Assembly (NCBI GenBank): GCA_947650365.1
Contig: OX393549.1
Coordinates: 26,244,709 to 26,308,708, forward strand
Direction: 5' to 3'
Length of the DNA stretch: 64,000 bases
Source: Chamaelirium japonicum
Taxonomy: Eukaryota; Streptophyta; Magnoliopsida; Liliales; Melanthiaceae
This document shows, in pieces, positions 18,469 through 61,489 of this stretch; positions within the stretch are counted from its first letter, which is position 1, and every line of letters starts with the position of its first letter. The position numbers and the translations under genes are program-made. Under the pieces are notes generated by a model that was not told the DNA's origin, did not search any database, and worked only from the letters and a program-made list of their open reading frames with translations.

Positions 18469-18473
18469 CCACT

Positions 18474-19906: not shown

Positions 19907-19914
19907 TCAGGTAC

Positions 19915-20843
19915 TTACTAATCTTTATAATATTAGTAAAAAATATGAATCTTACAAATTTGAGTTTAGATCATATTATCACGCTAACATGTTAACTTAT
20001 TATTTTCAAATCCAAAACACATTATCGGATACCGATCCGATGACGATCCGATCGAATCGAAACATATTTCAAATCCGAAACACGCTAACTTATGATTTTC
20101 CAACACTTAGACTCTAAATCGGTCAATCGAATCGTAAATTGTTTAAATATCCAATTAGAACTCGATCGCAAGTCCGAAATACGGAATAATTCCAAGTATG
20201 AATTATCGAATGCCGATCCGATGACGATCCGATCGAATCCAAAACTATTTCAAATCCGAAACACGCTAACTTATGATTTTCCAACACTTAGACTCTAAAT
20301 CGGTCAATCAGATCATAAATTATTCAAATATCCAATTAGAACTTGATCGCAAGTCTGAAATACGGAATAATTCCAAGTATGAATTATCGGATGCCGATCC
20401 GATGACGATCCGATCGAAATCCAAACCAATTTCAAATCTGAAATACGCTAACTTATGATTTTCCAACGCTTAGACTCTAAATCGGTCAATCGGATCGTAA
20501 ATTGCTAAAATTTCCAATTATAACTCGCTCGCAAGTCCGAAATACGAAATAATTCCAAGTACGAATTATCGGATGCCGATCCGATGACGATCCGATCGAA
20601 TCCAAACCTATTTCAAATCCGAAACACGCTAACTTATGATTTTCCAATACTTAGACTCTAAATCGGTCAATCGGATCGTAAATTATTCAAATATCCAATT
20701 AGAACTCGATCGTAAGTCCGAAATATGGAATAATTCCAAGTACAAATTATCGGATGCCGATTCGATGATGATCCGATCGAATCCAAACCTATTTCAAATC
20801 CGAAATACGCTAACTTATGATTTTCCAACGCTTAGACTCTAAA
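19915..20843 (+). repeat. 181-bp tandem repeat, ~5 units (copy A)
   Basis: ATGATTTTCCAACACTTAGA recurs at 20092, 20273, 20455, 20636 and 20818. Units resemble those of copy B and sit in the same place, 3' of the TNPA-like gene. The first unit is partial. Confidence 0.93.
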
Positions 20844-20848
20844 GGGTA

Positions 20849-39093: not shown

Positions 39094-39095
39094 AA

Positions 39096-39107
39096 TGGTA
39101 CCAGAGC
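39096..39107 (+). other. Copia 3 primer-binding site
   Basis: TGGTACCAGAGC lies two bases inside the LTR, one base off the usual initiator tRNA-Met site TGGTATCAGAGC. Confidence 0.85.
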
Positions 39108-41120: not shown

Positions 41121-42290
41121 ATGTCTGAGGGGCGCAGTCAAATGACTCGCTATCTTACCATCAAGAAACTCGTCAGTACTAAGATGTTTGATGGAATACT
41201 AGTTTGGAAACACATTCTTGGGTTCCAGAGCGAACTGTTTTTCTTTGACATAGTGCTAGATGTCGAGGTGATGGAGAACATCTGTCTTGCATCCTTATAT
41301 GGAACCTTTGAAGGCTTTGTCAGAGACTTCAGCCTTTACAAGCTAGAGATGACAAATGCGGAACTTCTGGGAGCTATCCAGGTCACTAAGGATGGGATCA
41401 AGATTAAAGGTAATTCCTTTAGTGCGTAACTTAGGCTTTCTATAAAGTGCCTAAAAGTACAAACTGATCAGAAACTAAAAACAATGCCTGTATAGAATCA
41501 GGAACAGACTCTTAAGTCTGGTGAAGCCTAGTATGAAAGTGCTTCCGATGTGGCAACACAAGGGGTATTGGAAGATAAAGATATGGTCTCAGGGTGCCAG
41601 GACAGGTAAACATCAACTCTTGGCAGAGTTGAATTGCTATCTAGTAAAAGTTCTTCTGCTTCTTGAAATATAGACTTTATGTCTATAGAGATTCAAGGAA
41701 AGTAGAAGGTTACTTATTGGTAAGGTGGTCCTAGCATAGATACTGATACCATAACTACTGCGGAAGCTGTTAATATGTTATCTTAGATTTTCCGATAGAA
41801 GAATTTTGATCCTTAGAGATTTAGTTATGTTTCCTCCAAGCTAAATAAAGGTTTTCAGTTCTAATCGATGGCTTTAGTGCATCTCTTAAACTGAATAGGT
41901 ACCTTCATTGCTAAAGGAATAGCTCATAATAAAATCTTTGTATTAAAATCCAGTTCGAAAATAGATTACATAACAGCTGTAGTATCTAATTCATATTCAT
42001 TTTATTCCTTGGGAAAACTTAATCCAATTGTGGCTCCTATGACTTAGATATATTGTCTCAGACATAATTCAAAGGTCAGTGAAGGCCGAGTTTCTAGATA
42101 CATATTCCTCGAAGATCCTTCCGACCTGTGAGTCTTGTTTGGAAGGCAAAATGAGTAAAAAGGCCACTAAGGTATTGGAGTTAATCCATTCTGACGTATG
42201 TGGTTCCAAGAGCATCCAGATGGATAATATCCATTGGATGAGTTCCATAGGTACCTGATGGGGCATGGGATGATATCCTAGTTAATTGCG
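41121..42290 (+). pseudogene. Copia 3 gag to integrase remains, upstream of the CACTA insertion
   Basis: A gag patch at 41121-41429 has MTRYLTIKKLVSTKM and YKLEMTNAELLGAIQV, matching copia 2 Gag (VTRYLTIKKLVSMKM, RLEMSNAELLAALQV). Near 42130-42210 CESCLEGKMSKKA and LIHSDVCG mark the pre-integrase to integrase boundary. A fossil with many breaks. Confidence 0.8.
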
Positions 42291-42780
42291 CACTACAAAA
42301 AAAATAGTTATTACCGACGGAAACTATCCGTCGGTAATATTAACATTCCGTCGGTAATAGTTTATAGCTACGGAAGATATTTCCGTCGCTGGCTGTCGAG
42401 AAAGAAGGTGTCGGAAAAAATAATACGACGGACCAAATATTACCGTCGGTAATAATAATTAATACCGACGGTAATATTAAAGCCGTCGGTCATATTTAAT
42501 CAATTAAAAATTAAAATAATATATTATTGCCGACGAACCTTAATAATCCGTCGGTAATATATAAGCATTTTACCGACGTTTATGGTATATACTGTCGGTA
42601 ATATATATAGGTAATACTATATATATTACCGACACATATATATGTACCGTCGGTAATAATATATATATTACCGACGGATGTTATATACCGTCGGCAAATT
42701 ATTTATAATTTACAAAAAATGAAAAGATTATTACCGACGGAATATTTAATTTCCATCGGTAATAAGTATGTTTTTTTTTT
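42291..42780. repeat. Left terminal and subterminal repeats of the CACTA element
   Basis: After the CACTACAAAAAAA terminus, about 17 forms of TACCGACGG or CCGTCGGTA occur in both orientations, often as short hairpins around 8-20 bp of AT-rich spacer. In En/Spm such repeats bind TNPA and bring the ends together. Confidence 0.9.
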
Positions 42781-43199
42781 AATAAATTTACCTAAATAAT
42801 GTTATTTAATTCCTGTGATTTACAACAATACCACAATATATTACCACAATTTATCAAATATTACCACAATTTATAAAATATTACCGTAAATTTTAAAATA
42901 TTACCTAAATTGATAAAAAATTACAGCAAATTATCAAATATTACCACAGTACCCGACAATTATAGACAAGAACAAAAAATAACCACATATTACAAAATAA
43001 TATTTACACAATCCAAAACTGAAAGATGATACATGCCCTATCTCAACCACCCCCGCCCGCCACCAACGCTGGTGCTCTCATCGATGCCCTGACGCCGCCC
43101 TATCTCAACCACCCCCGCCCGCCACCAACGCTGGTGCTCTCATCGATCCCCTAACGCCGCCCTGCTCCTGCAATTAACATGTATTTGTTAAAAAAATTG
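42781..43199 (-). other. AT-rich repeats and 3'-terminal exon candidate of the TNPA-like gene
   Basis: 42830-42960 holds degenerate repeats of TATTACCACAATTTATCAAA. From 43035 a 62-bp GC-rich block (CCCTATCTCAACCACCCCCG...) occurs twice in tandem. On the minus strand this block follows TTAATTGCAG at about 43170, a good acceptor, so it could be a last exon or 3' UTR of the TNPA-like transcript, with the whole 181-bp array in the intervening intron. This is inference. Confidence 0.4.
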
Positions 43200-45989
43200 T
43201 TTATATCTATAACTGAGTCTAAGCGTTAAAAAATGATAAGTTAGCGTGTTTCGGTTTTGAAATAGGTTTGGATTCGATCGGATCGGCATCCGATAATTCG
43301 AAGTTGGAATTATTCTGTATTTCGGACTTGCGAGCGGGTTCTAATTGGATATTTGACCAATTTACGCTCGGATTCACCGATTTAGAGTCTAAGTGTTGGA
43401 AAATCATAAGTTAGCGTGTTTCGGATATGAAATAGGTTTGGATTCGATCCGATCATCATCGGATCGGCATCCGATAATTTGAACTTGGAATTATTCCGTA
43501 TTTCGGACTTGCGAGCGAGTTCTAATTGGATATTTGACCAATTTACGCTCCGATTCACCGATTTAGAGTCTAAGTGTTGGAAAATCATAAGTTAGCGTGT
43601 TTCGGATATGAAATAGGTTTGGATTCGATCGGATCGTCATCGGATCGGCATCTGATAATTCGAACTTAGAATTATTCTGTATTTCGGACTTGCGAGCGGG
43701 TTCTAATTGGATATTTGACCAATTTACGATCCGATTCACCAATTTAGAGTCTAAGTGTTGGAAAATCATAACTTAGCGTGTTTCGGATATGAAATATGTT
43801 TGGATTCAATCGGATCGTCATCGGATAGGCATCCGATAATTCGAACTTGGAATTATTCCGTATTTCGGACTTGCGAGCGAGTTCTAATTGGATATTTGAC
43901 CAATTTACGCTCCGATTCATCGATTTAGAGTCTAAGTGTTGAAAAATCATAACTTAGCGTGTTTCGGATATGAAATAGGTTTGGATTCGATCGGATCGTC
44001 ATCGGATCGGCATCCGATAATTCAAATTCGGAATTATTCCGTATTTCGAACTTGCGAGCGGGTTCTAATTGGATATTTGACCAATTTACGATCCGATTCA
44101 CCGATTTAGAGTCTAAGTGTTGGAAAATCATAAGTTAGCGTGTTTCGGATATGAAATAGGTTTGGATTCGATCGGATCGTCATAGGATCGGCATCCGATA
44201 ATTCGAAGTTGGAATTATTCCGTATTTCGGACTTGCGAGCGAGTTCTAATTGGATATTTGACCAATTTACGCTCCGATTCACCGATTTAGAGTCTAAGTG
44301 TTGGAAAATCATAAGTTAGCGTGTTTCGGATATGAAACAGGTTTGGATTCAATTGTATCGTCATCGGATCGGCATCCGATAATTTGAAGTTGGAATTATT
44401 CCGTATTTCGGACTTGCGAGCGGGTTCTAATTGGATATTTGACCAATTTACGCTCCGATTCACCGATTTAGAGTCTAAGTGTTGGAAAATCATAAGTTAG
44501 CGTGTTTCGGATATGAAATAGGTTTGGATTCGATCGGATCATCATCGGATCGGCATCCGATAATTCGAAGTTGGAATTATTCCATATTTCAGACTTGCGA
44601 GCGGGTTCTTATTGGATATTTGACCAATTTACGATCCGATTCACCGATTTAGAGTCTAAGTGTTGGAAAATCATAACTTAGGGTGTTTCGAATATGAAAT
44701 AGGTTTGGATTCAATCGGATCATCATCGGATCGGCATCCGATAATTCGAAGTTAGAATTATTTCGTATTTCAGACTTGCGAGCGAGTTATAATTGAATAT
44801 TTGACCAATTTACGCTCCGATTCACCGATTTAGAGTCTAAGTGTTGGAAAATCATAAGTTAGCGTGTTTCGGATATGAAATAGGTTTGGATTCGATCCGA
44901 TCGTCATCGGATCGGCATCCGATAATTCAAACTTGGAATTATTCCATATTTCGGACTTGTGAGCGGGTTCTAATTGGATATTTGACCAATTTACGCTCCG
45001 ATTCACCGATTTAGAGTCTAAATGTTGGAAAATCATAAGTTAGCGTGTTTCAAATATGAAATAGGTTTGGATTTGATCGGATCGGCATCCGATAATTGAA
45101 ATTTGAATTATTCCGTATTTCGGACTTGCAAGCGGGTTCTAATTGGATATTTGACCAATTTACGATCCGATTCACCGATTTAGAGTCTAAGTGTTGGAAA
45201 ATCATAACTTAGCGTGTTTTGGATATGAAATAGGTTTGGATTCGATCGGATCGTCATCGGATCGGCATCCGATAATTCGAACTTGGAATTATTCCGTATT
45301 TCGGACTTGCGAGCAAGTTCTAATTGGATATTTGACCAATTTACGCTCGATTCACCAATTTAGAGTCTAAGTGTTGGAAAATCATAAGTTAGCGTGTTTC
45401 GTATATGAAATTGGTTTGGATTCGATCGGATCGTCATCGGATCGGCATCCGATAATTTGAAGTCGGAATTATTCCGTATTTCGGACTTGCGAGCGGGTTC
45501 TAATTGGATATTTGACCAATTTACGCTCCGATTCACCGATTTAGAGTCTAAGTGTTGGAAAATCATAAGTTAGCGTGTTTCGGATATGAAATAGGTTTGG
45601 ATTCGATCGGATCGTCATCGGATCGGTATCCAATAATTCGAAGTTGGAATTATTCTGTATTTCAGACTTGCGAGTGAGTTATAATTGGATATTTGACCAA
45701 TTTACGCTCCGATTCAATGATTTAGAGTCTAAGTATTGGAAAATCATAACTTAGCGTGTTTCGGATATGAAATAGGTTTGGATTCGATCGGATCGTCATC
45801 GGATCGGCATCCGATAATTCGAACTTGGAATTATTCCGTATTTCGGATTTGCGAGCGAGTTCTAATTGGATATTTGACCAATTTATGCTCCGATTCACCG
45901 ATTTAGAGTCTAAGTGTTGGAAAATCATAAGTTAGCGTGTTTCGGATATGAAATAGGTTTAGATTTGATCGGATCGTCATCGGATCGGC
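43200..45989 (-). repeat. 181-bp tandem array, part L1, ~15 units
   Basis: The period is 181 bp throughout (TTAGAGTCTAAGTGTTGGAA at 43381, 43562, 43743, 43924 and so on). The core contains GGATCGTCATCGGATCGGCA, rich in CpG and CGGATC/GATCCG inverted motifs. Units differ at a few positions (AAGTTAG or AACTTAG; GCTCCG or GATCCG). The array is cut by the solo LTR at 45990. Confidence 0.96.
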
Positions 45990-46015
45990 TGTGGGTGCAA
46001 ATTTTAGCAGAAGAT

Positions 46016-46490
46016 TAACGACTACCGCGGGAGCCACCGGCCCTACCTGGTGGGCCCACGAGGACTACCGCGGAACCCACCAGCCCTGCCTGGTAGGCCC
46101 GCGAGGACTACCGCGAGACCCACCGGCCCTGCCTGGTGGGCCCACGAGGACTACCGCGGGACCCACCGGCCCTGCCTGGTGGGCCCACGAGGACCACCAC
46201 GGGACCCACCGGCACTGCCTGGTGGGCCCACGAGGACTACCGCGGGACCCTCCGGCCCTGCCTGGTGGGCCCGCGAGGACTACCGCGGGACCCACCGGCC
46301 CTGCCTGGTGGGCCCACGAGGACTATCGCGGAACCCACCGGCCCTGCCTGATGGGCCCACGAGGACCACCGCGGGACCCATCGGCCCTGCCAGGTGGGCC
46401 CACGAGGACTACCGCGGGACCCACCGGCCCTACCTGGTGGGCCCATGAGGGCAATCGCGGGACCCACCAGCCCTGCCTGGTGGGACCAAG
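46016..46490 (+). repeat. 43-bp minisatellite in the solo LTR, ~11 units
   Basis: The unit is CACGAGGACTACCGCGGGAC followed by CCACCGGCCCTGCCTGGTGG and GCC. The period of 43 is not a multiple of 3, which opens long frames in several registers by chance. The G1 LTR has about four units. Confidence 0.93.
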
Positions 46491-46592
46491 AACCTGTGGA
46501 ATCCCCTAGAAGACGGTAGCGAGGCCCGCCAGTTTTACCTGGAGGATCCCCAGATGCTGCAGCAGAAACCGCCTTTTACCACCAGAAAATTC

Positions 46593-46601
46593 TATAAATA
46601 G
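46593..46601 (+). promoter_or_regulatory. TATA box of the solo LTR
   Basis: TATAAATAG in TTCTATAAATAGCAGAGCC, the counterpart of the G1 LTR box. Transcription would run toward 47020 and into array part L2. Confidence 0.55.
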
Positions 46602-47020
46602 CAGAGCCTTCGAATGTAAAAGGATCGAATCTAAAATCCGAAATCCATTCTCCACTCTGAGATCTGATTTTCAGAACCAGATCTCTGGAATTTCTATCTT
46701 CTCACCCTTCACCTCTACTTGATCATCTTTTTGTCTGTGAAGAGATCAAGAAGGCTTCAGTAGCACTCGGCCTGTCGAGGTTACTTTGAGAAAAGTGTTA
46801 GTGAATTTGGGTTGCACCCTATAGCACGGAGACGTAGGCTTCGGCTGAACTCCGAGATCACTTCTCGTGTCAAACTCTCTCTCTGATTGCATCTCTCTGT
46901 TTACATATCAAAAACTTCAACTTCGATCAACAGATCGACCAACGATCTTCGACGTCAACTTCAATTCCAATTGACTGGTGAGGCGAGGTCTTCGGGTCGG
47001 CACGAAGATTTTCCCCCACA

Positions 47021-49634
47021 TCGGCATCCGATAATTCAAAGTTGGAATTATTCCATATTTCAGACTTGCGAGCAGGTTCTAATTGGATATTTGACCAATT
47101 TACGCTCCGATTCACCGATTTAGAGTCTAAGTGTTGGAAAATCATAAGTTAGCGTGTTTCGGATATGAAATAGGTTTGGATTCGATCCGATCGTCATCGG
47201 ATCGGCATCCGATAATTCGAACTTGGAATTATTCCGTATTTCGGACTTGCGAGCGAGTTCTAATTGGATATTTGACCAATTTGCGCTCCGATTCACCGAT
47301 TTAGAGTCTAAGTGTTGGAAAATCATAAGTTAGCGTGTTCCGGATATGAAATAGGTTTGGATTCGATCGGATCATCATCGGATCGGCATCCGATAATTCG
47401 AAGTTGGAATTATTCCGTATTTCGGACTTGCGAGCGGGTTCTAATTGGATATTTGACCAATTTACGATCCGATTCACCGATTTACAGTCTAAGTATTGGA
47501 AAATCATAACTTAGCATTTTTCGGATATGAAATAGGTTTGGATTCGATCGGATCGTCATCGAATCGGCATCCAATAATTCGAACTTGGAATTATTCCGTA
47601 TTTCGGACTTGCGAGTGAGTTCTAATTGGATATTTGACCAATTTACGCTATGATTCATCGATTTAGAGTCTAACTGTTGGAAAATCATAACTTAGCGTGT
47701 TTCGGATATAAAATAGGTTTGGATTCGATTGGATCATCATCGGATCGGCATCCGATAATTCGAAGTTGGAATTATTCCGTATTTCGGACTTACGAGCGGG
47801 TTCTAATTGGATATTTGACCAATTTACGCTCCGATTCACCGATTTAGAGTCTAAGTGTTGGAAAATCATAAGTTAGCGTGTTTCGGATATGAAATAGGTT
47901 TGGATTCGATCCGATCGTTATCGGATCGGCATCCGATAGTTCGAAGTTGGAATTATTCCGTATTTCGGACTTGCGAGCGGGTTCTAATTGGATATTTGAC
48001 CAATTTACGATCCGATTCACCGATTTAGAGTCTAAGTGTTGGAAAATCATAACTTAGCGTGTTTCGGATATGAAATAGGTTTGGATTCGATCGGATCGTC
48101 ATCGGATCGGCATCCGATAATTCGAAGTTGGAATTATTCCGTATTTCGGACTTGCAAGCGGGTTCTAATTGGATATTTGACCAATTTACGCTCCGATTCA
48201 CCGATTTAGAGTCTAAGTGTTGGAAAATCATAAGTTAGCGTGTTTCGGATATGAAATAGGTTTGGATTCGATCGGATCGTCATCGGATCGGCATCCGATA
48301 ATTCGAAGTTGGAATTATTCCGTATTTCGGACTTGCGAGCGAGTTATAATTGGATATTTGACCAATTTACGCTCCGATTCACCGATTTAGAGTGTAAGTA
48401 TTGGAAAATCATAACTTAGCGTGTTTCGGATATGAAATAGGTTTGGATTCGATCGGATCGTCATCGGATCGGCATCCGATAATTTGAACTTGGAATTATT
48501 CCATATTTCGGACTTTCGAGCGAGTTCTAATTGGATATTTGACCAATTTACGCTCCGATTCACCGATTTAGAGTCTAAGTGTTGGAAAATCATAAGTTAG
48601 CGTGTTTCGGATATGAAATAGGTTTGGATTCGATCGGATCGTCATCGGATCGGCATCCGATAATTTGAAGTTGGAATTATTCCGTATTTCGGACTTGCGA
48701 ACGAGTTATAATTGGATATTTGACCAATTTACGCTCCGATTCACCGATTTAGAGTCTAAGTGTTGGAAAATCATAAGTTAGCGTGTTTCGGATATGAAAT
48801 AGGTTTGGATTCGATCCGATCATCATCGGATCAGCATCCGATAATTCGAAGTTGGAATTATTCCATATTTCGGACTTGCGAGCGGGTTCTAATTGGATAT
48901 TTGACCAATTTACGCTCCGATTCACCGATTTAGAGTCTAAGTGTTGGAAAATCATAAGTTAGCGTGTTTCGGATATGAAATAGGTTTGGATTCGATCCGA
49001 TCGTCTTCGGATCGGCATCCGATAATTCGAAGTTAGAATTATTCCTTATTTCGGACTTGCGAGCGAGTTATAATTGGATATTTGACCAATTTACGCTCCG
49101 ATTCACCGATTTAGAGTCTAAGTGTTGGAAAATCATAAGTTAGCTTGTTTCGGATATGAAATAGGTTTGGATTCGATCGGATCGTCATCGGATCGGCATC
49201 CGATAATTCGAAGTTGGAATTTTTCCGTATTTTGGACTTGCGAGCGGGTTCTAATTGGATATTTGACCAATTTATGCTCCGATTCACCGATTTAGAGTCT
49301 AAGTGTTGGAAAATCATAAGTTAGCGTGTTTCGGATATGAAATAGGTTTGGATTTGATCCGATCGTCATCGGATCGACATCCGATAATTCAAAATTTGAA
49401 TTATTCCGTATTTTGGACTTGCGAGCGGGTTCTAATTGGATATTTGACCAATTTACGATTTGATTCACCGATTTAGAGTCTAAGTATTGGAAAATCATAA
49501 CTTAGCGTGTTTCAGATATGAAATAGGTTTGGATTCGATCGGATCGTCATCGGATCGGCATCCGATAATTCGAAGTTGAAATTATTCCGTATTTCGGACT
49601 TGCGAGCGGGTTCTGAGTGTTGGAAAATCATAAG
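47021..49634 (-). repeat. 181-bp tandem array, part L2, ~14 units
   Basis: This continues the L1 array after the solo LTR, starting in mid-unit at TCGGCATCCG. It ends with a partial unit at about 49634, just 3' of the TNPA-like gene. The junction sequence toward the gene (AATATGATCTAAACTCAAAT) is also found at the array start in copy A. Confidence 0.96.
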
Positions 49635-49711
49635 TGTGATAATATGATCTAAACTCAAATTAGTAAGATTCATATTTTTTACTAATATTATAAACTTTAG
49701 TAAGTACCTGA

Positions 49712-51406
49712 TCATGAGCCACCGCTAGACCAGCTTATGAAGTCATTAAGCCGACGCTCCAGTTCCTTGCGAGTTTCTCTTTCCTCATCGAGGGCCTTCT
49801 TCTCCGCCTCAACACTCTGCTCGAGGGCCTGCCTCTGCTCTCGCTCTGCCTCAATCCTCTACTCGAGGGCCTGCCTCTGCTCTCGCTCCGCGTCTAGCGC
49901 AGACTGCAGCTGAGTGATAGCACCGGTCTGGGTGTCCCGTGCCCTCGAGCGCATACCCTCTCGTCCAAAGTAGGAGGAGGGCGTGACTCCAAGGCCCGTA
50001 CAGAGGACACGGCCGTGCGTGGCAGGTCTCAGCACAGTATCCATCGCTGAGTCGATAGATACTGAGCTGGAGAAGGAGCCGGCCTCGCCCGACGGGGTCA
50101 CCAGAAGTCGCATCCTCTCCTATATAAAAATAACCAATGATATTCAATGATATTTTATGGCATATGTATAAGAATATATTAACAATAATTTAATTACTTA
50201 CCACTTGCGAGGCAACTCTGTCGTCCAGAAATGCCCCATCGATATGCCGCCTCCTAGAGGCCTCAAAAAGGTCAATCCTATTAGGCTCGTGGCCCAAGGA
50301 CTGTGTCTGTTGGATATATAAAATAAATAGATGAGTTAATATAACATGTATAGAGCTTTAAATAATAACAATATTTGTATCATTTACCAGCTGCTGGGCA
50401 AGCTGGGGCATGGAGGTCCTCCCCTTCACTGGAGCAGGTGTCGTCGAGGCACTTCTATTCTGCTTGCCTATAGCATATTTCCTCTGTGTCAATCGATTAA
50501 ATTTTGAAACATCAATATAAATTTTTAGAAAAACATTAAAACAAGTACGAATCAACAAAATTATAATTATACCTGAAAGCTAGGGGTGGCCCAGTGAGCG
50601 ACCAAAAACTGTAGAATGTGTAGCGGTGACGCGTCTCTCATCCCGGCCGCAGCCTGTACCTCCTCAGCCGGCTGGCCGACCAAGTAACCGTAGAGCTGGT
50701 AGAGCTCGTGACGGTAATCCCTGTACCGCTCACCCATCATCTTCCACAAGTCCTCCCGATGGGTGTCGGTTTTCATGTTCTCCTATTTAAATTTCTCCTG
50801 TAAAATCAATTTGGAAACAAGTCATTTTATCAAATCAAATTATAAAGAAGTACGATATTATTCTAAAATGTTTTAATGAAACTAACGTACCAAAAACTAC
50901 TGATACATCCTCTCCTTATAGGATGCATCAATGTTCTTCCACCCCCTTAACCCCACAATCGGGGCATTCCTCTCCTCCCGTACTATAATGCCGACCCACG
51001 TGGCGGCGTCAAAAGCGTGCTCGCCCACAAAGGTCATGCCGCTCCATTGTAGGGAAAGCGACTCGCGTAAGGCCGACAAGCGCCGGGCCGTCGTCACGCC
51101 CCGGTTGCCTACGTGCCTGGTGATCCTCGACCCTGCAAATAAAATATACATCAGTACTGAAGAAGTATTTACAACATGTATAAAACTTTAGATCTAAACA
51201 TTACCAGTGGGCGTAGACGCTGTAGCCGAGTGCTGAGCACTGCTCGAAGCTCCGGAGGTTGCGACAACATCAGGAGCTGGTGTGGAGAGAGGAATAACAC
51301 TACCAGATCCGGACGGCTCAGCCTCGGACCCTGGGGTGGCAGCCGGAGCGCTCCGAGCTACCCCACCCCTGCCTCTGCCTCTACGAATATATGACCGTGA
51401 TGCCAT
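49712..51406 (-). pseudogene. TNPA/Ptta-like CACTA protein gene
   Basis: Six exons by GT-AG sites, phase and comparison with copy A: 51205-51406, 50891-51132, 50573-50797, 50388-50483, 50202-50306 and 49712-50119. The N-terminus is Arg/Gly- and Ser/Thr-rich (MASRSYIRRGRGRGG). Then come GNRGVTTARRLSALRESLSL, GWKNIDASYKERMYQ, THREDLWKMMGERYRDYR, HWATPSFQ and LGHEPNRIDLFEASR, the Transposase_24/Ptta pattern (PF03004), and a C-terminal coiled coil. Three in-frame TAG codons break it, at 50897-50899, 50783-50785 and 49859-49861. At the second, copy A reads TGG. Expected role: binding subterminal repeats during transposition. The protein is otherwise complete. Confidence 0.85.
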
Positions 51407-51606
51407 CTGAAATAATTTAATTTACATATGAAACACTAAGATTTACATATGAAACAATATGAAACAGTTTGATTTATATATGAAACAGTAAGATTTACAT
51501 ATGAAACAATATGAAACAGTTTGATTTACATATGAAACAGTATGATTTATGAAACAATATAAAACAGTTTGATTTACATATGAAACAATATGATTTACAT
51601 ATGAAA
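51407..51606. repeat. AT-rich ~21-bp repeats upstream of the TNPA-like gene
   Basis: TTTACATATGAAACA and variants recur about every 20-30 bp, with occasional doubled AATATGAAACAG. The same motif borders the other side of array R. Confidence 0.85.
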
Positions 51607-53410
51607 CAGTTATAATTGGTCAAATATCCAATTATAACTCGCTCGCAAGTCCGAAATACGGAATATAATTCCAAGTTCGAATTATCGCATGCCGATTCGA
51701 TGACGATCGGATCGAATCCAAACCTATTTCATATCCAAAACACGCTAACTTATGATTTTCCAACACTTAGACTCTAAATCGGTTAATCGGATCATAAATT
51801 GGTCAAATATCCAATTAGAACCCGCTCGCAAGTCCGAAATACGGAATATAATTCCAAGTTCGAATTATTGGATGCCGATCCGATGATGATCGGATCGAAT
51901 CCAAACCTATTTCATATCCGAAACACGCTAACTTATGATTTTCCAACACTTAGACTCTAAATTGGTGAATCGGATCGTAAATTGGTCAAATATCCAATTA
52001 GAACCCGCTTGCAAGTCCGAAATACGGAATAATTTCAACTTCGAATTATCGGATGCCGATCCAATGACGATTCGATCAAATCCAAACATATTTCATATCC
52101 GAAACACGCTAACTTATGATTTTCCAACACTTAGACTCTAAATCGGTGAATCGGATCGTAAATTGGTCAAATATCCAATTAGAACCCGCTCGCAAGTCCG
52201 AAATACGGAATAATTCCAAGTTCGAATTATCGGATGCCGATCCGATGACGATCCGATCGAATCCAAACCTATTTCATATCCGAAACACGCTAACTTATGA
52301 TTTTCCAACACTTAGACTCTAAATCGGTGAATCGGAGCGTAAATTGGTCAAATATCCAATTAGAACCCGCTCGCAAGTCCGAAATACAAAATAATTCCAA
52401 GTTCGAATTATCGGATGCCGATCCGATGACGATCCGATCAAATCCAAACCTATTTCATATCTGAAACACGCTAAGTTATGATTTTCCAACACTTAGACTC
52501 TAAATCGGTGAATCGGAGCGTAAATTGGTCAAATATCCAATTATAACTCGCTCGCAAGTCCGAAATACAGAATAATTCCAAGTTCGAATTATCGGATGCC
52601 GATCCAATGACGATCCGATCGAATTCAAACCTATTTCATATCCGAAACACGCTAACTTATGATTTTCCAACACTTAGACTCTAAATTGGTGAATCGGATC
52701 GTAAATTGGTCAAATATCCAATTAGAACCCGCTCGCAAGTCCGAAATACGGAATAATTCAACTTCGAATTATCGGATGCCGATCCGTTGATGATCCGATC
52801 GAATCCAAACCTATTTCATATCTGAAACACGCTAACTTATGATTTTCCAACACTTAGATTCTAAATCGGTGAATCGGAGCGTAAATTGGTCAAATATCCA
52901 ATTAGAACTCGCTCGCAAGTCCGAAATACGGAATAATTCCAAGTTCGAATTATCGGATGCCGATCCGATGACGATCCGATCGAATCCAAACCTATTTCAT
53001 ATCCGAAACACGCTAAGTTATGATTTTCCAACACTTAGACTCTAAATCGGTGAATCGGATCGTAAATTGGTCAATTATCCAATTAGAACCCGCTTGCAAG
53101 TCCGAAATACGGAATAATTCCAATTTCGAATTATCGGATGCCGATCCGATGACGATCCGATCGAATCCAAACCTATTTCATATCCGAAACACGCTAACTT
53201 ATGATTTTCCAACAGTTAGACTCTAAATCGGTGAATCGGAGCGTAAATTGGTCAAATATCCAATTAGAACCCGCTCGCAAGTCCGAAATACGGAATAATT
53301 CCAAGTTCAAATTATCGGATGCCGATCCGATGACGATCGGATCGAATCCAAACCTATTTCATATCCGAAACATGCTAACTTATGATTTTCCAACACTTAG
53401 ACTCTAAATC
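51607..53410 (+). repeat. 181-bp tandem array R, ~10 units, inverted relative to L1/L2
   Basis: Same unit as L1/L2 but on the opposite strand (ATGATTTTCCAACACTTAGA at 51935, 52116, 52839, 53020 and 53201, among others). It lies between the TNPA-like and TNP2-like genes, so the TNPA-like gene is enclosed by opposed arrays. Confidence 0.95.
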
Positions 53411-53595
53411 GGTGAATCGATCGGATCTTAAATCGGTGAAACGATATGATTTACATATGAAACGGTATGATTTACATATGAATCGGTGAAATGGTATGAT
53501 TTACATATGAAACAATATGATATACATATGAAACAATATGATTTATATATGAAACAATTTGATTTAAATATGAAACAATTTGATTTACATACGGT
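53411..53595. repeat. AT-rich ~21-bp repeats downstream of TNP2
   Basis: ATGATTTACATATGAAACAA and variants, as at 51407-51606. GAATCGGTGAAA fragments of the 181-bp unit are mixed in, so array R appears to have grown inside this simple repeat. Confidence 0.8.
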
Positions 53596-56500
53596 CTAGT
53601 CATTTTCTGTCTCATCTCTGTCACTCTCATCGCTTCCCTCTTCTATTATTTGATATGCATTCGCTGTCCAGTTTATATTGTTGACATCTTCATTTTCGTC
53701 GTGCACTGCGTCGACAATGATTATCTCATCATTCTGGTATGCATCCAAATCATCATCGACGACCCCTGCATCCTTATCTCCCATGTCATAAAAATCTCTG
53801 GGTGGTGACCTGACTACAATTTGCTAACCTGGAGAGGTATTATCCGGTGCATAAAATATCTGTTGCGCTTGAGAGGCAAGAATGAATGGATCTTCATATT
53901 GGGTATTCAATCTCTTGCCAGTGTTGATGCTGATAAAACCGTATTTGTCGATATTATAACCAGTCTCGCGATTATTAACATCATACCAATCGCATTTGAA
54001 TAATACGATCCGATTTTGGCCAAGGAATTTAATCTCGAGAATCTCGTTGAGGACGCCGTAGAAGTCGATATTTTCTAATTCTTCTTGCTCACCGTTGACG
54101 ACAACCCCACTATTTTGGATTCTTCGTGATTTTTCACTATCTTTCGTCCGATATCTATAACCGTTCATGATATAACCATCGTACGATATTCCGTCTTGCA
54201 AAGGACTACAAGATAAGCGTCAGAGATCCTCATTCATCAGCGGATCGTGGTTGTCGTGCAGCTCCTGTGCCTATAATAACCATATGACATTCATGATATG
54301 AACACATAATTATTGTTCGGTAATGGATGTCAATGAAATTCAGTAATGATATGAATACTTACGTGTTTCTCGAACCACGATGGGAATTCACGATCATGAA
54401 TTTGGGGAGCATTTCGAGTACCCCGATTATTAATGATGGCTTTATGCTTCCTGTTTTACCGGTTATGAATTAGATTATAATTAGCACATATACTTAATGA
54501 ATGGACTGAAAGAATGAGTAAATGATCATAAAATGCTTACTCAATGAATGGCCACACTTCATCACATTGGCACAACACATACATATGTGCCTGTTGAATC
54601 TCATCTACAGACAATCGACGGGTTTTGCCTCCTCCTATCGGTCTACCCATTTCGGCAAATATAGACAGACCCCCATCGAAGTCTATTGGACCACCGTAAT
54701 AGTTCTGCTCAAGTTGATTGAATCGCGTGTCTATACCATGTAGGTATCTTGAGCAGAATGTTAGACATTCTTCTGCTAGGTATCCTTCAGCAATTGATCC
54801 CTCCGGATGACTTTTATTACGAACATATGATTTCAATATTCGCAAGTACCTAATTTGAGAAAAAAATATTTGGATGAATATCAAGAACGATCAAATACAT
54901 TGTGCGAATGAGACGAGTTGATTACCTCTCGATAAAATACATCCACCGGTAATAAACTGGGCCGTCGAGTTTGGCCTCATTTGCCAAGTGAACGGTCAAA
55001 TGCACCATGACATCAAAGAAGGAAGGTGGAAATATCATCTCTAACTTGCACAATGTGAGCGCAATATCCCTCTCCATCTGTTCAAGTTGGTCCACTCTAA
55101 GTACCTTCGAGCATAACTGTCTGAAAAAAGTGCTGAGCTCAATTAACGGACCGGACACCTGTTCGGTTAAATTCCCACGTATAGCAAGAGATAACAATCG
55201 CTGCATAAGAACATGACAATCGTGGCTCTTTAATCCAGACAACTTCCGGCCGTTCTCTTGCACGCATCGTGCAATATTCGAAGAATAACCGTCTGGCGTT
55301 TTCACAGACCGTAGGAATGCACATAAGACTGCCTTTTGCTGTGAGCTCATGGTGTAGCATGCAACTGGCAACACATACTTATCCCCAATCTCTTGGGGAT
55401 GAAGTAATTTTTGGATGCCCAACTCCTTAAGATCGAGACGAGATTTAAGATTATCCTTCGTCTTACCGTCGAGATTCAGCAGTGTTTCTATAATGTTATC
55501 ACACACATTTTTCTCGATATGCATGACATCCAAGTTATGCCGCAAGAGTAGGCTGCTCCAGTACGGTAGTTTAAAAAAAATACTCTTCTTCTTCCAGTTA
55601 TGCTCACGCGTAGAATCTTCATGCATTCTCTTCTTTTTACCTTTTCCATGTGCCACGGCATCAAGCTGATCCAATTCGCACAAGACTTCTACCCCCGAAA
55701 GCTGCTCCGAGGCCTTTGCAAGTTCCTTCTTGCCGTTGAAAGCTCTTTTGTTTTGCCTCCACTTATGGCCGTCAACAAGGAATCTTCGATGGCCCATATA
55801 ACAGAACTTGCCTCCGTTCTTCAACCGTAATGAATCTGTCTTCTTTTTGCATATAGGGCACGCCAATTTTCCTTTAGTACTCCACCCGGATAAGTTGGCA
55901 TATGCAGGAAAATAGTTGATGGTCCATAGAAGTGCCGCATGCATTCGAAAATTCTGGCGCAACGAGGCATCATACGTATCGGCCCCAACTTCTCATAACT
56001 CGTTCAACTCCTCAATCAACGGCTGCAAGTAAACGTCAATATCATTACCAGGCGACTTGGGTCCGGGAATAAGCAAGGAGAGCATTGTGTATGGCTTTTT
56101 TAAGCACATCCAGGGAGGCAAATTGTATGGAACTAGGACAACTGGCCAAATGTTGTACGACATACTCATATTCCCAAAGGGATTGAAGCCATCGCTAGCA
56201 AGCCCTAACCTGACGTTGCGAACTTCACATGTGAATTCAGGATAGGTATGATCAAAATCTTTCCACGTCAGAGAGTCGGTCGGATGTCTCATAATCCCGT
56301 CATATGTACGTTCTCGTGCATGCCACCTCATGTGCTCAGCAGTCTTCGATGACATAAACAACCTCTGAAGCCTGTCCCTGAGCGGGAAGTATAGGAGAAC
56401 CTTTGCAGATACATTTTTCTTCCTTCGACTGGTACTAGACTCGGCATCCGTCTCTTTATATCTCGTTGCTCCGCATATGTGGCATGACCGCACATGTTCG

Positions 56501-57195
56501 TACTCTTTCCGGTACAACATACAATCGTTCACGCATGCATCAATTTTCTCATAACCCAGACCGAGATCTTTAATTGTCTTCTTCACCTCGTAGAATGATT
56601 TCGGTATTGTCTCACCCATAGGAAAAGCCTCTTTCAGCAACTCTACCAACATATTAAATGACTTATTACTCCAACCATTGAGGCACTTCAAATGAAGAAG
56701 CTTTATAGTGAAAGAGAGTTTTGAAAACTTCTCACACCCCGGGTATAGAGGTTGTTCGGCATCTTTAAGCAATCTGTAGAACTTGTCCGCTTCGATATTG
56801 GGCTGATCACCTGACGGTGTTTCCGTGCCTATTCCACCTTGCAAATCATGTATCATACCCTGCATGTCATCATCATCGTCTGTATTAATATTATCATCAG
56901 CGATCACTGTGTTTGAAGTTTCACCGTGAGCTGCCATGGGGACTGCATCTAGCTCCTTACCGTGCGAGAACCAACGGGTATAGCTAATGTCAATACCACG
57001 CATTACCAGATCAACCTCACATTCCTCTCGAACCTTCCTAGTCACCCTTCCGCAGTCTATACAGGGACACACAATTTTTCCATCAAGCGGTGCAAGACGC
57101 TCAAATGCAAAATCCAGAAATTTCCTGACTCCTTCTCTGTACTCTTGGCTTATGCGATTCGAATTACGCATCCAACTCTTATTGATCGAAGACAT
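53596..57195 (-). pseudogene. TNP2-like CACTA transposase gene
   Basis: Four exons with GT-AG introns and consistent phase: 54926-57195, 54541-54849, 54363-54450 and 53596-54264, about 1,110 codons, the usual TNP2 size. The N-terminus is the transposase-associated domain (PF13963: MSSINKSWMRNSNRISQEY, VCPCIDCGRV). The core is Transposase_21 (PF02992) with ASDGFNPFGNMS, LACPICKKKT and HNLDVMHIEKNVCDNI. A DUF4218-like and a DUF4216-like region follow (FKCDWYDVNN), and the tail is acidic. Three in-frame stops break it: TGA 55993-55995 (ELNEL*EVG, family Trp), TGA 54220-54222 and TAG 53824-53826 (SPG*QIV, probably Trp). All fit single C-to-T or G-to-A changes. It would cut and rejoin CACTA ends. 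Confidence 0.92.
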
Positions 57196-57733
57196 CTTCG
57201 TCTATCTGGCTATACAACACCTGACATATAATTTCAAACAATGTTATAAGACTCCGCACAATTTCGGTTTCGGTTCCCGGGTATGGAACACCGAACCAAA
57301 ACTTCTACAGGCCATCCACATCCCTAATGGATGAGTGTATTATGATGAGTAGACTAGTCACATAGTAAACCTAGGGTTGCTGGCCAGCATTTGAACTGCT
57401 GATACTTCGAATGCTAGGCATAGCACCAAAGTTATGCGACAGTAAGTCAACAAGTCAGGGAGCCTCATCAAGTAAACACTTGGGGTCTGACGGTTCTCTC
57501 TGTCGCTCGAGTAGATTTATGGCTTTAGCATACCTCATATCACACCGAACCGACAAAAACCGACCATTTCGGTTTCGGTTTCGGTTTCGGTTTTGATTTT
57601 TCGTAAACCAAAAAAAATATAACCGACAAAACCCACACCGAAACCGACCGACAAAACCGACGCTCACCCTAGTCTAAAAACTACATTTTGCCCCCCATTC
57701 CCCCATTCAATTCAGTTTTGATAGGATAAAAAT
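57196..57733. other. TNP2 upstream region: possible 5' UTR intron with old LTR-like and (TTTCGG)n sequence
   Basis: On the minus strand TTATATGTCAG at about 57226 is a possible acceptor just 5' of the ATG. 57300-57535 resembles a piece of the copia 3 LTR (AGGCCATCCA, GGGTCTGACGGTTCTCTCTG), much diverged. 57565-57595 is a TTTCGG run. No gene is seen. Confidence 0.35.
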
Positions 57734-57948
57734 CAATGTTTTAAAACACGAAAACTCGACTCGACTCGAAACCTTAATGAGTCGAGTAGACACGACAACT
57801 CGGCTAAAACCCGACAAAACTCGAGTCGGATCGAAACTCAGCCGAGTCGGATCGAAACTCGAGTTTTGGACCGAGTCGGATCGAAACTCAGCCGAGTCGA
57901 GTCGACTCGGCCGAGTTTCGAGTCGACTCGGCGAGTTTTAAAACAGTG
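57734..57948. mobile_element. hAT-like foldback MITE, 215 bp
   Basis: Ends are CAATGTTTTAAAAC and, inverted, CACTGTTTTAAAAC. A 7-bp duplication, TAAAAAT, flanks them (57727-57733 and 57949-57955). The inside is made of CGAGTCGGATCGAAACTC repeats that pair with each other. The CAnTG end and 7-8 bp duplication fit the hAT superfamily. Confidence 0.75.
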
Positions 57949-57955
57949 TAAAAAT

Positions 57956-58736
57956 TACCAAATGAGGGAATTAACCAGTTTTGATAAGATAAAAATTACT
58001 CATATGAATGAATTGGAATAACTCATATGAATCGTATGATAATAACTCATATGAATGAATCATATGAATGGATACATTCCCATTCAATTCCCCCCATTCA
58101 ATTCAGTTTTGATAAGATAAAAATTATCAAATAAGTATGCAATTTTCATAAGGGAATTCAGTACGTAGATGACAAAATTAGTATGCAATTTTGATAAGAT
58201 AACATTTCAAACTTTAGTATACAATTTGGAACAAATTAACCTAAGGAGGAAAGGGAGGAGGAGGAGGAGCTCACCAGCGATGGTCGGCAGGCTTCGAGAA
58301 GGAGGAGGAGCACTGGTGTCGCAGTCGGTGGCGCAAGAAAGGGGAGGGGTGGCCGGAGGTGCAAGGGAGGGGATGGGTGGCCGGCCGGAGGGGGGGTTTA
58401 GATCGAGAGAGAGAGAGAGGTGAGGGGAGGAAGTAGAGAGAGAGAGAGAGAGAGAGGGAAGGCTAGGGAGGCCGGGGAGGGGGGGAGGAGGCCGGGGAGA
58501 GAGAGAGAGAGGCCCGGGAGGCCGGGGAGGGGCAAAGGTCGAGAGGGGGATGGGTGGCCGGGAGGGGAATGGGTGGCCGGAGGGGATCGTGCGGCTGCCG
58601 GAGGGGGACGGGGTCGCCGGACGGGTCGGGTCGATCGGTGAGAGAGAGAGAGAGAGAGATTCAGAGAGGGGCGCCATATTCGGTCGAAACAGAAAAAGAA
58701 ACGGGGTGGCGCACTGTTAGGTATATTAGACGGGTT
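57956..58736 (-). promoter_or_regulatory. CACTA promoter / 5' leader candidate for TNP2
   Basis: 58000-58080 has AACTCATATGAATGA repeats. 58245-58680 on the minus strand is C/T-rich, with CT runs, and ends in CGCTGGTGAGCTCC (about 58279), a good 5' splice donor. This would suit a first non-coding exon of TNP2 spliced to the acceptor near 57226. The long open frame here is low-complexity Ser/Pro/Leu text and is not taken as a gene. Confidence 0.35.
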
Positions 58737-59420
58737 TTTACCGACGGAACTTATAAGTTCCGTCGGTATAATTACTTTATACCGACGGTAGTATAATTTC
58801 CGTCGGTAAAATTCGTCGAGACAATTTTACCGACGGATATTTATTTACCGTCGGTATCGTACCGACGGACATATAATTTCTGTCGGTATAATTAGTTATA
58901 CCGACGGAAATATAACGTCCGTCGGTAAAAATCACCGACGAAACTCAGGGTTCCATTTTTTCCAGAGGCTCGGTTTTTACCCTGAGTTTCGTCGGGACAA
59001 TTTTACCGACGGATATTTAATTACCGTCGGTATCGTGCCGACGGCCATAAAATTTTTGTCGGTATAATTAGTTATACCGACGGACATATAAAGTCCGTCG
59101 GTAAAACTCACTGACGAAACTCAGGGTCACATTTTTTTCCAGAGGCTCGGTTTTTACCCTGTGTTTCGTCATGACATTTTACCGACGGTATTTATGTGGC
59201 CGTCGGTATAAAGTATATTACCGACGGGACATATATGTACCGTCGGTATAAATCGTTTTACCGACGAAATCTATTTGACCATCGGTAATAAATGTGCAAA
59301 AAAAATTTAAAAAATTGAAGTTATAATACCGACGGATATTATAGTCACCGTCGGTAAAAAGTGTATTATTACCGACGGTGATAAAAATGTCCGTCGGTAA
59401 AGACCTACTTTCTTATAGTG
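58737..59420. repeat. Right terminal and subterminal repeats of the CACTA element
   Basis: More than 20 copies of TACCGACGG/CCGTCGGTA occur in both orientations up to the CACTATAAGAAAGTAGG end. They are partly arranged in two tandem ~176-bp units starting at 58820 and 58996. The unit holds CGAAACTCAGGGT...ACCCTGAGTTTCG, a 12-13 bp stem around a loop of about 28 bases. Confidence 0.9.
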
Positions 59421-61489
59421 GCTCCAGGGACACCATGCCAGAATGGAATATCCAAGAGAAGGAAACAGACCCTGTTGGACATGGTTTAAAGAATGATGAG
59501 TTTTGCCAAGTTTACTACCCAACGTCTATGGGTTACACCTTGAGACACAGTAGAGTATATCTTGAATAATATCTCATCTAATCAGTGCCTCATACCCGAA
59601 AAGCTGTGGTCTGAGCGAAAGCCTATACTACGGCATTTTAGTATATGGGGATGTCCTGCATATGTGCAGAAGGACAAGAGGGATAAGATGGAGACTAAGT
59701 TCAAGGTTTTATAGGTTATCCTAGAAAAATATAAGGTGGACTATCCATGATCCTGAGGAATAAAAGGTGATCGTTTCTATGAATACCATCTACCTAGAGC
59801 GGGATTCTATTATAGACCATATGTCCACTAGTAAGGTAATTCTGGGTGAATTACTGGATACTAGAGGAGAGCGCATGATCGGAAACGTAGTGGTAATAGA
59901 TGATGCAGACACTAGTATACCAGAAACTGTAGAAATAATTTGCTCTGTACCATAACCATTTTGTCACAGTGGGAGCACCATTAGAGCTCTTGAAAGATTT
60001 TGTGGACAAACTTTGTGAATTAGTCCATAAATTCAAGAGGATGGCCCCTTGAGCTACGACAAAGTAGTGAAATTTTTTTGACAGAACTGTCTGAGAGAAA
60101 GTCATGGATACAAAGCTTGAATCAGTGTCCAGTGATACTCTTTTGTACCAGGGTTCATCAAAGCTTTATTAAAGCATATTTGGATTGGGTCAAAGTTAAA
60201 GACCTGTGTAAGCGGATCACTGTGCGCACCCTCCCTCGAGTGGGCGTATACTGAATCTAAGACTTGCGCACCTGGCAACTTAGCCCATTGGGTAGAAGTT
60301 GGCAGAAGAGAGGATATATGATGTAGTTTCCAGGCTTATGAGTTAGCAGGTCAGGAATACCTAGCTTACAGAATTGCAAAGGTTCATTTTTGGACTGAAG
60401 CAAGTATCGAGGAGAAGCAATATCTATCTTGATCAAGTATGATCTATTCATACAGATTTCATCAAAATAAGCCAAGTGTGTACAAGAGGAGCGATGGAAC
60501 TATATGGGTGTACCTAGTACTTTACATAGACGATGTTCTACTGATTGAAAATGAAGTAGGAACATTGCCTAAGTTAAATGTCTGGTTATTATCTTAATTC
60601 GACAGAAAGACCTTCATGAGGTGAGTTATGTTTTGGAGATCATGGTAACTTGAGATCGTCAGAACAGGATTCTCACACTATCACAGGCTATGCATAGAGA
60701 TATGGTTCTAGCCAGTATCAATATACAAGACTCCAGAAGGGGTTTCTTGCTAAAGCTTGAAACTGTCAAATGATATAAATTATATGACACCTAAGGAGAT
60801 GACAGAAATACAGAAGGTGCCCTATGTTTATGCAAAGGGTAGTCTTATGTATGCCATGATTGTATAAGATGCTAGTTATCTATTGCACAGCAGGATTGGA
60901 GGGTCGGTTTTAGTCGAATCCGGGTCCAGTTAGCTGGATTGATGTGAAGAGTATACTCGATATCCTCGTCAAACAAGGACTACGAGTTAGTTTACACTTC
61001 ACAAGACTTGATACCGATTGGATGCACAAGATCTGATTTAGCATCGGATGTGTAATCTAGAGAATCGACTTCAGGTATAGTTTTTACCTTGGGATGAGAA
61101 GCGGTTAGTTAGCAGAGTGTGAAGCTATAATGCATCACGTGCTCTACTACAGAAGCCTAAGCACATTGTAGCGTGCGTGACAGGAAAATAGGTGGTATGG
61201 CTCGGTAAGTTCATAGTAAACTTGGAAAGCATACCAGAGGCTCAGTTTTTTTTGTAACAACAAAAAAGCGATAGCAAGAGCCTAGGCACCACCATAAATG
61301 GGAAACATATCAAATACAAATTCTACTTGATCTGGTAGTTTTAGAAGGAAAGGCAAGTGGCGGTAACTGAGGTAGCATCTGCAGATAATGTTGCTGATTC
61401 CTTTAGGGAATTCCTGCAAAGGCTTTTGAGCAGTATGTAGAAGCTATAGAGTTCATGACTATTTTTCCTCGCTAGACCAAGTGGTAGAT
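59421..61489 (+). pseudogene. Copia 3 integrase to RNase H remains, downstream of the CACTA insertion
   Basis: The text resumes at APGTP (copia 2: APGTPQQNG), then WGCPAYVQKDKRDKME, RT traces with LYIDDVLLIENEVG near 60520, and RNase H traces near 60980-61250. A fossil with many breaks. It ends at the 3' LTR. Confidence 0.8.

Follow-up and report, generated by a model that had tools for sequence, protein, structure and literature searches.

The window analysed here, a stretch of 64,000 nucleotides from Chamaelirium japonicum, holds a CACTA transposon in which two arrays of a 181-bp satellite unit lie in opposite orientations on either side of a TNPA-like gene. This element very probably belongs to a high-copy CACTA family whose ancestor already had the 181-bp arrays on both sides of TNPA, opposed to one another, and which spread by ordinary transposition. 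The arrangement within the element had been described in a first-pass annotation, and was confirmed by TRF and by a unit profile. Features are given with their coordinates in the window and their strand.

18472..20848, plus strand: copy A, a fragment with the 3' part of TNPA and 4.5 units of array L (87.7% identical to 51058-48748, with the same array edges)
36732..61993, plus strand: copia element hosting copy B (repeats at 36732-37242 and at 61490-61993; both flanks matched by a paralogous copia)
42291..59419, minus strand (both genes on the minus strand): CACTA (En/Spm) transposon, copy B (terminal motifs and 3-bp flanks)
42291..42800, unstranded: 3' end with subterminal ACCGACGG/CCGTCGGT repeats (motif matches)
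43215-49635, plus strand: array L, whole (5,391 bp, 29.8 units)
43215..45989, plus strand: outer part of array L, 15 full 181-bp units and an edge piece, phase 104 (TRF, unit profile)
45990..47019, plus strand: nested gypsy solo LTR, within L (the LTR at 9532-10253 matches at 81%; 5-bp target duplication TCGGC)
47020..49635, plus strand: inner part of array L, 14 full units and edge pieces (TRF, unit profile)
49712..51406, minus strand: TNPA-like gene, six exons in the present reading (PF03004 Transposase_24, E 1.8e-14, spliced reading)
51408..51611, unstranded: 21-bp minisatellite flanking R on the TNPA side (TRF)
51614..53441, minus strand (opposite to L): array R, nine full units and two edge pieces (1,828 bp, 10.1 units; TRF, unit profile)
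53437..53591, unstranded: 21-bp minisatellite flanking R on the TNPD side (TRF)
54925..57201, minus strand: TNPD-type transposase exons (PF02992 Transposase_21, E 1.3e-51 and 3.8e-37; PF13963, PF13960)
58735..59419, unstranded: 5' end with subterminal ACCGACGG/CCGTCGGT repeats (motif matches)

Structure of the element and its arrays

Copy B, 17,129 bp in length, is a member of the CACTA (En/Spm) superfamily, as it combines the ends, the subterminal repeats and both the TNPD and TNPA genes, with matching 3-bp TSDs in other copies of the family (L017 and L027, below). Its inverted CACTA ends are formed by CACTACAAAAA at 42291 (CACTAC...) and TTATAGTG at 59419 (...TATAGTG), and within the 64-kb window the ACCGACGG/CCGTCGGT motifs, in both orientations, are confined to 42313-42740 and 58740-59398. 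The 3-bp flanks read GCG/GCT, with one base mismatched, and the paralogous copia points to GCT as the sequence present at this site before insertion. Both genes are interrupted in copy B, TNPD by one in-frame stop (55993-55995) within the transposase domain and the TNPA-like gene by three.

All 48 unit matches in the window fell inside three arrays, namely L, R and that of copy A (TRF and unit profile), while 20 Markov-simulated windows gave three matches in total at the same loose threshold (E 0.1). The monomers of copy B are arranged in tandem in long arrays, with 93-94% matches within arrays, and thus have the organisation of a satellite. Together L and R make up 42% of the element and are separated by a spacer of 1,978 bp. 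Array L sits 3' of TNPA, its inner edge about 75 bp beyond the stop codon, and is followed by about 0.9 kb of the 3' end of copy B; R sits 5' of TNPA, between TNPA and TNPD, with TNPD and the 5' end outside it. The arrays are therefore internal to copy B, and not termini as the opposed arrays of a foldback transposon would be. The unit numbers proposed initially, about 30 on one strand and about 10 on the other, were correct, although L is broken by the solo LTR at 45990-47019. Likewise, the "giant inverted repeat around the gene" that had been proposed does enclose TNPA, but leaves the TNPD exons (57201-54925, minus strand) outside.

Several possible origins of the arrays were tried and rejected. 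A search for R as an inverted duplicate of a block of L gave best nine-unit registers of 95.6% in reversed and 95.5% in forward order, the mean being 94.8%. TRF gave R a length of 10.0 units, as if it were an insert of whole units, but its edges overlap by about 11 bases, so that nothing was drawn from the unit count. An origin of the unit inside the element was also rejected, the alignment of the consensus to non-array parts being no better than that of shuffled sequences (31 of 100 reached its score).

Recurrence of the arrays in other copies and across the genome

Copy A carries an array of four full units and a piece (20037-20854). The same 3' spacer adjoins the array in copies A and B, the outer phase is shared (100 and 104, respectively), and C113 is found in the outermost pieces of both. 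Divergence between the two copies is alike in the unit consensus (5.0%) and in TNPA (6.5%). Copy A had been presented as an independent insertion with the same array at the same place; the array edges and the position 3' of TNPA are indeed shared, but copy A, being a fragment, has no CACTA ends and is bordered by retroelements on both sides, and therefore tests array L alone and not R. TRF alone listed a 363-bp period in copy A.

Twenty further copies were compared, these being the best-scoring of 3,822 candidates obtained with a query spanning the outer edge of L, which thereby excluded copies without L. The inner edge of L was found within the 10 kb read in 15 of the 20 (11 in full, four in a shorter form), and the 3' end carried CACTACAAAAA in 15 and CACTATAAAAA in one, no such end being printed in the remaining four. 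Array R was carried by 11 of the 13 copies that had a complete TNPA in the usual order and sequence beyond it, and in arrays that were read as far as TNPA, L comprised 16 to 54 units. Individual copies departed from this plan: L015 has L and lacks R, L021 showed no R within the 1.9 kb read, and L017 and L027 lack both TNPA and R and are flanked by 3-bp duplications (AAT/AAT and GGG/GGG, respectively). L026 is a palindrome with two 3' ends, in the order 3' end, plus-strand array, reversed TNPA, minus-strand array and reversed 3' end, a structure expected from recombination between L and R. Its flanks, ACT/GCT, are unmatched; a relation of its right flank to that of copy B (GCTCCAG) was rejected, as there was no homology beyond those letters.

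The genome of the window itself (1.52 Gb) was then searched with edge patterns allowing up to three mismatches. The outer edge of L was found 1,424 times, the inner edge 1,099 times and the TNPD-side edge of R 560 times, and reversed-pattern controls gave none. An exact 20-mer of the unit occurred 33,041 times (control 0), which suggests about 64,000 units, or 0.8% of the genome. On contig 1, the five unit clusters that come first in coordinate order (by our own grouping of the 100 places listed), which were not chosen for CACTA, had nine of nine edges read in CACTA parts; no free-standing array outside a transposon was seen among these five clusters, all of which lay in CACTA sequence. The earlier proposal of an array belonging to the element family thus has strong support from more than 1,000 edges, from the position of L beside TNPA at other sites and from the five contig 1 clusters. 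The suggestion that the arrays are a source of satellite DNA holds only for a satellite that is dispersed and element-borne; none of the few array edges read lay outside CACTA sequence.

Relationships among units

Units from the same element resemble one another on average scarcely more than units from different elements do, the mean identities being 0.9547 within and 0.9530 between elements. Within copy B, L and R units were compared by permutation (p 0.18). Adjacent units were no closer than distant ones (lag 1, 0.9553; lag 3-9, 0.9550), higher-order repeats were rejected as identity was flat across the lags tested, and unit order was hardly conserved between elements. The nearest neighbour of 127 of the 529 L units was nevertheless in the same element, where about 5% would be expected from numbers alone by our estimate, and some copying of units within elements must therefore have happened. 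The poorly kept order speaks against simple inheritance and the lack of local likeness against local exchange, and with the same-element neighbours these observations leave the internal history of the arrays unexplained.

It could be envisaged that the arrays cause dispersed copies to recombine, as one pool exchanging units, with opposed pairs giving rise to palindromic elements with two 3' ends and to deletion derivatives. We regard this as unlikely, the more so given the excess of nearest neighbours in the same element. If true, satellites would be homogenised and the genome rearranged by a route specific to CACTA elements.

Possible functions of the arrays

A special structural or silencing role had been suggested for the arrays, and was unsupported by the pattern of sequence decay. 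Transitions at CG, CHG, CHH and AT sites amounted to 4.0, 2.3, 1.35 and 0.16% in the array and to 3.8, 3.6, 1.7 and 0.22% in TNPA, so that CG and CHG decay was no stronger in the arrays than in the gene. The same figures bear on a possible self-silencing hairpin, in which a TNPD-R-TNPA-L transcript would fold, be diced to small RNAs and silence the family. R lies between the two genes, both of which are read on the minus strand, L starts about 75 bp past the TNPA stop, 1,356 of the 1,807 24-mers of R are complemented exactly in L (the longest exact inverted match spans 151 bases), and methylation-type decay is seen in the arrays at CG and CHG. As this decay does not exceed that of TNPA, however, and as L015 has L without R, such a hairpin appears unlikely.

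By analogy with the VANC targets of VANDAL transposons, the arrays might instead be a binding platform, offering sites to a putative TNPA-like protein for anti-silencing. They lie on both sides of TNPA, the unit has 16 CpG per 181 bp (observed/expected 2.1), and the hexamer TCGGAT/ATCCGA reaches about 20 occurrences per kb in the arrays, where seven other stretches have 0 to 1.4 per kb. CHG sites change less inside the hexamer (5 of 149 cells) than outside it (25 of 228), and VANC and maize TnpA are precedents in the portion of the source used (PMC10398659). However, the subterminal ACCGACGG is not in the unit, even at two mismatches, the repetition of the hexamer was matched by 117 of 1000 dinucleotide shuffles, and CG sites changed at an equal rate inside (24/303) and outside it (70/912). 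With these motif tests mostly negative, a reading of the unit as a TNPA motif was rejected, and a binding platform is improbable. Most likely the arrays are passengers with a recombinational side effect.

Origin of the arrays

Capture of a general genomic satellite by CACTA copies, or its recombination into them, more than once, would agree with the near equality of unit likeness between and within elements, as from a shared genomic pool, and a similar array in Chenopodium was interpreted as captured in the part of that report consulted (PMC8978399). Such a history is highly improbable, given the same edges in copies at different sites, the more than 1,000 outer and inner edges genome-wide, the nine of nine CACTA edges in the contig 1 clusters and the similar divergence of unit consensus and TNPA between copies A and B; recombination of a general satellite into both copies, named at the outset as one of two grounds for refutation, is disfavoured likewise. 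An assembly artefact, with inverted arrays or unit order made by the assembler, hardly deserves credit: unit order does vary between copies and the assembly technology is unspecified, but no nine-unit register of R and L exceeds 95.6%, so that R is no duplicated contig piece, and the same R edge was found 560 times.

The preferred history is thus that of an ancestral element which would have acquired a tandem array on either side of TNPA, in opposite orientations, before the family spread. Ordinary transposition would have carried the arrays inside the element, producing a dispersed satellite of element-borne arrays. The arrays were probably nearly homogeneous just before the family expanded, unit number may have shifted by unequal exchange or replication slippage, and the opposed arrays may have served as recombination substrates, yielding rearranged derivatives such as the palindromic L026.

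Comparison with known systems

The comparisons below draw on portions of the cited papers. A close precedent is the CACTA element of Chenopodium quinoa (Jozin study), 16.5 kb in length, with 32.5 units (5,550 bp) of a 171-bp satDNA near its 3' end, an array reported in four elements (PMC8978399). Like copy B, it has an array of nucleosome-sized repeats close to the 3' end; in contrast, there is one array per element, read as captured, whereas the present family has a pair of opposed arrays that flank TNPA and recur at the same places in many copies. By alignment the two monomers show no relation, the score of 9 being reached by 298 of 300 shuffles (169 letters were compared, while the paper states 171). 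The Chenopodium satellite CficCl-61-40, which derives from tnp2 in a CACTA-like element (PMC7320549), also ties a CACTA transposon to satellite DNA, but was seeded by a 40-bp piece of that gene, whereas no source of the present unit was detectable within its element. Tetris, a foldback transposon associated with the TIR-220 satellite in Drosophila virilis (PMC4079207), is likewise a DNA transposon whose internal tandem repeats are opposed; these repeats, however, lie in the terminal inverted repeats and also build up longer satellite-like arrays, and the element is apparently non-autonomous. Arabidopsis VANDAL elements contain non-coding tandem repeats, the VANC targets (PMC10398659), but these are short-motif repeats bound by an anti-silencing protein. 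Among the literature matches listed we recognised no description of opposed arrays around TNPA, strings of the unit sequence were not found in the literature searched, and one 25-base pattern each gave no match in viral and prokaryote collections.

Judged by copy counts alone, the 181-bp unit would pass for a satellite family; as far as the copies were read, it is built into a transposon family as a fixed internal component. The case is relevant to the origin of satellites and to their spread in the absence of long arrays, and the family offers many natural replicates in which to follow how arrays change in the order and number of their units and to ask if opposed arrays lead to rearrangement.

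Anatomy and insertion site of the CACTA element

The window (64 kb, without any N) consists of plant transposable elements nested in one another, among them two related CACTA copies whose features are as follows.

Features of the CACTA copies and their 181-bp arrays (window positions)
42291-59419, genes on minus strand: copy B, CACTA transposon, start CACTACAAAAA, end TTATAGTG
57201-54925, minus strand: Transposase_21 exons (TNPD) of copy B
51406-49712, minus strand: TNPA-like gene, six exons (spliced reading against Pfam Transposase_24, 1.8e-14)
Array L, 3' of TNPA: 15 full units, solo LTR, 14 full units, plus edge pieces
45990-47019: solo LTR inside array L, 5-bp duplication TCGGC on both sides
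Array R, opposite strand to L: 9 full units and two edge pieces, embedded in a 21-bp minisatellite in the TNPA-TNPD interval
18472-20848: copy A, 3' part of TNPA and 4.5 units

A scan of the whole window placed the motif ACCGACGG and its complement near both ends of copy B only. Neither gene of copy B is intact: TNPA has three in-frame stops, and the transposase domain is interrupted by one. The site holding copy B is a copia element; at another place in the window, a copia paralogous to it has the same site without the insert, which implies that GCT was duplicated; the left copy now reads GCG. Next to the host copia lies a second LTR-plus-internal stretch (36732-39093 against 61490-63852, 95% identical), and the two look like a tandem copia pair with one LTR in common.

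Around copy A, a copia without evident target duplications (10254-18472) lies between the end of a gypsy LTR (10253) and the TNPA fragment, and an LTR element with the near duplication GGGTA/GGGTG (20849-31398) is inserted at the outer edge of the array. The gypsy LTR carries a G+C-rich 43-bp tandem repeat, in 3.6 copies at 10069-10222 and 10.9 in the solo LTR (46020-46488). Elsewhere, long pure AT runs and imperfect palindromes occur at 31604-32256 and 34027-34095, and an open frame of 681 codons (21-2063) scored 26.1 bits for Transposase_28, just below the Pfam cut-off of 26.2.

Opposed arrays around TNPA

A profile search found 48 matches to the 181-bp unit in the window, all held by three arrays; since 20 simulated windows gave only three weak matches in total, a chance origin was excluded. 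Array L starts about 75 bp downstream of the TNPA stop codon. The array of about 30 units described in the first-pass annotation is present, but the solo LTR that splits it into L1 and L2 had been overlooked.

Within copy B, mean unit identity was 0.940 (L1-L1), 0.948 (L2-L2), 0.944 (L1-L2), 0.947-0.949 (L-R) and 0.954 (R-R), while copy A and copy B units shared 0.905-0.912. Permutation gave no distinction between L and R units of copy B (p 0.18), and polymorphisms at unit positions 22, 56, 60, 86, 129 and 169 were common to both.

Distribution of the arrays in the genome

The genome of the window comprises 1.52 Gb in 3,253 contigs. With the 701 bases of DNA at the outer L edge as query, scoring 40 of 3,822 first-look candidates gave 62 matches. 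Forty of these places (the window's included) matched over 700 or all 701 bases with an identity of 96% or higher, and the other 22 matches were shorter, at 92-95%. One 20-mer taken from the unit had 33,041 exact occurrences (reversed control, 0). Calibration on 20 copies, in which 324 exact 20-mers stood for 628.6 unit equivalents, extrapolates to about 64,000 units (11.6 Mb, 0.76% of the genome), a figure derived from copies picked for their likeness to copy B. Patterns for the array edges, allowing up to three mismatches, were found 1,424 (outer L), 1,099 (inner L) and 560 times (R, TNPD side), controls giving none. On contig C1, among the matches listed (100 outer, 74 inner), at least 32 pairs of exact outer and inner edges lay within 20 kb, the median distance being 5.8 kb and the extremes 2.6 and 19.0 kb; nested inserts may be part of the longest. 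The earlier proposal that the array belongs to the element family was right. As to the unit outside CACTA copies, we took the first five clusters on C1 in coordinate order of the exact-20-mer list, by our own grouping; in this small sample from one chromosome end (eight stretches, the fifth cluster by its left edge only) all nine edges were CACTA sequence, one being a diverged 3' end (70-77%).

Twenty other copies and their derivatives

Ten kilobases were read from each of the copies ranked 2 to 21 for the outer-edge query, all of which have the outer edge because they were selected by it. The inner L edge lay within the stretch in 15 of the 20 (11 full, 4 in a shorter form), and arrays read as far as TNPA held 16 to 54 units, the longest being L025 read together with stretch L038. 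Stretch L024 holds five units and 1,137 N, and L028 runs off its end at 49.6 units; TNPA was seen in neither. The TNPA match ends early in L014 and runs off the stretch in L016. In 13 copies (L009-L013, L015, L018-L023, L025) TNPA was complete, stood in the usual order and was followed by further sequence; R was present in 11 of these, running off the stretch end in L011 and L018. In L015, TNPA and the TNPD side are linked at 9446-9750 by the 21-bp minisatellite without R, which represents an empty site or a loss; L021 has neither minisatellite nor R within the 1.9 kb read.

Two copies, L017 and L027, are short deletion derivatives in which L directly adjoins the TNPD gene; their 3-bp target duplications are exact (AAT and GGG, respectively). 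In L026 the order is 3' end, plus-strand array (22 matches), reversed minisatellite and TNPA, minus-strand array (25 matches) and reversed 3' end. Together with L037 (C8:55452817-55470816) it forms a CACTA derivative that is palindromic, with a 3' end at each terminus and opposed arrays, its terminal arms 95.4% identical across 972 bases and its flanks mismatched (ACT/GCT). This is the product expected of L-R recombination between two copies, seen once in twenty.

Unit decay and history of the arrays

In copy B, 203 of 217 unit changes from consensus fell at C or G, and transitions affected 6.4% of CG, 6.9% of CHG, 1.8% of CHH and about 0.2% of A/T sites, a spectrum that is the pattern of DNA-methylation decay. 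Transversions made up 77 of the 203 C/G changes, 57 of them at CHH, home of several shared polymorphic sites. A<>T changes per A/T site were 0.30-0.42% in copy B units, 0.80% between the copia repeats and 0.56% in TNPA between elements. Computed on 648 units (21 loci) without the six shared polymorphic sites, transition rates were 4.0 (CG), 2.3 (CHG), 1.35 (CHH) and 0.16% (A/T), against 3.8, 3.6, 1.7 and 0.22% in the TNPA regions of 15 elements. Since these rates are similar, the arrays decay much as TNPA does, not faster, and this comparison, the sole indirect test, lends no support to the special silencing role suggested earlier.

With copy A and L026 left out, mean unit identity was barely higher within the same element than between elements (0.9547 against 0.9530; for L-R pairs, 0.9561 against 0.9556). 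Of 529 L units, 127 nevertheless had their nearest neighbour in their own element, as did 7 of 63 R units; since by our estimate numbers alone would give about 5% for L, some within-element copying happened. Haplotype likeness was 0.7195 within elements against 0.6835 between, and adjacent units were no more alike than distant units in an array. Position was conserved only near the outer edge, over roughly four units; past these, 10 of 190 element pairs were at the lowest attainable p (1/61) against about 3 expected, and scoring by 11 polymorphic sites gave 6 of the 190 pairs, with 4.6 expected. Unit order beyond the outer units is hardly conserved.

The simplest account is an array that, immediately before the expansion of the family, was nearly homogeneous with a few variants, and that later changed mostly through private mutation, to a large extent driven by methylation. 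This account leaves the lost unit order unexplained, for which exchange between elements, order differences among the source copies and assembly error are candidates.

Comparison with known systems

Close to the 3' end of a 16.5 kb CACTA element of Chenopodium quinoa stands a 171-bp satellite in 32.5 copies; the satellite also occurs in three further elements, and capture is discussed by the authors (PMC8978399). Array L is of the same kind as described there, with an unrelated monomer. Among the literature matches listed, we found no earlier description of a second, opposed array upstream of TNPA, nor of both array places being constant across a CACTA family. Among those matches, the DNA transposon that comes closest in carrying opposed tandem arrays is Tetris (PMC4079207); in functional terms, the closest precedent for tandem repeats within such a transposon is VANDAL/VANC (PMC10398659). 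The opposed-array CACTA structure is real and well supported.
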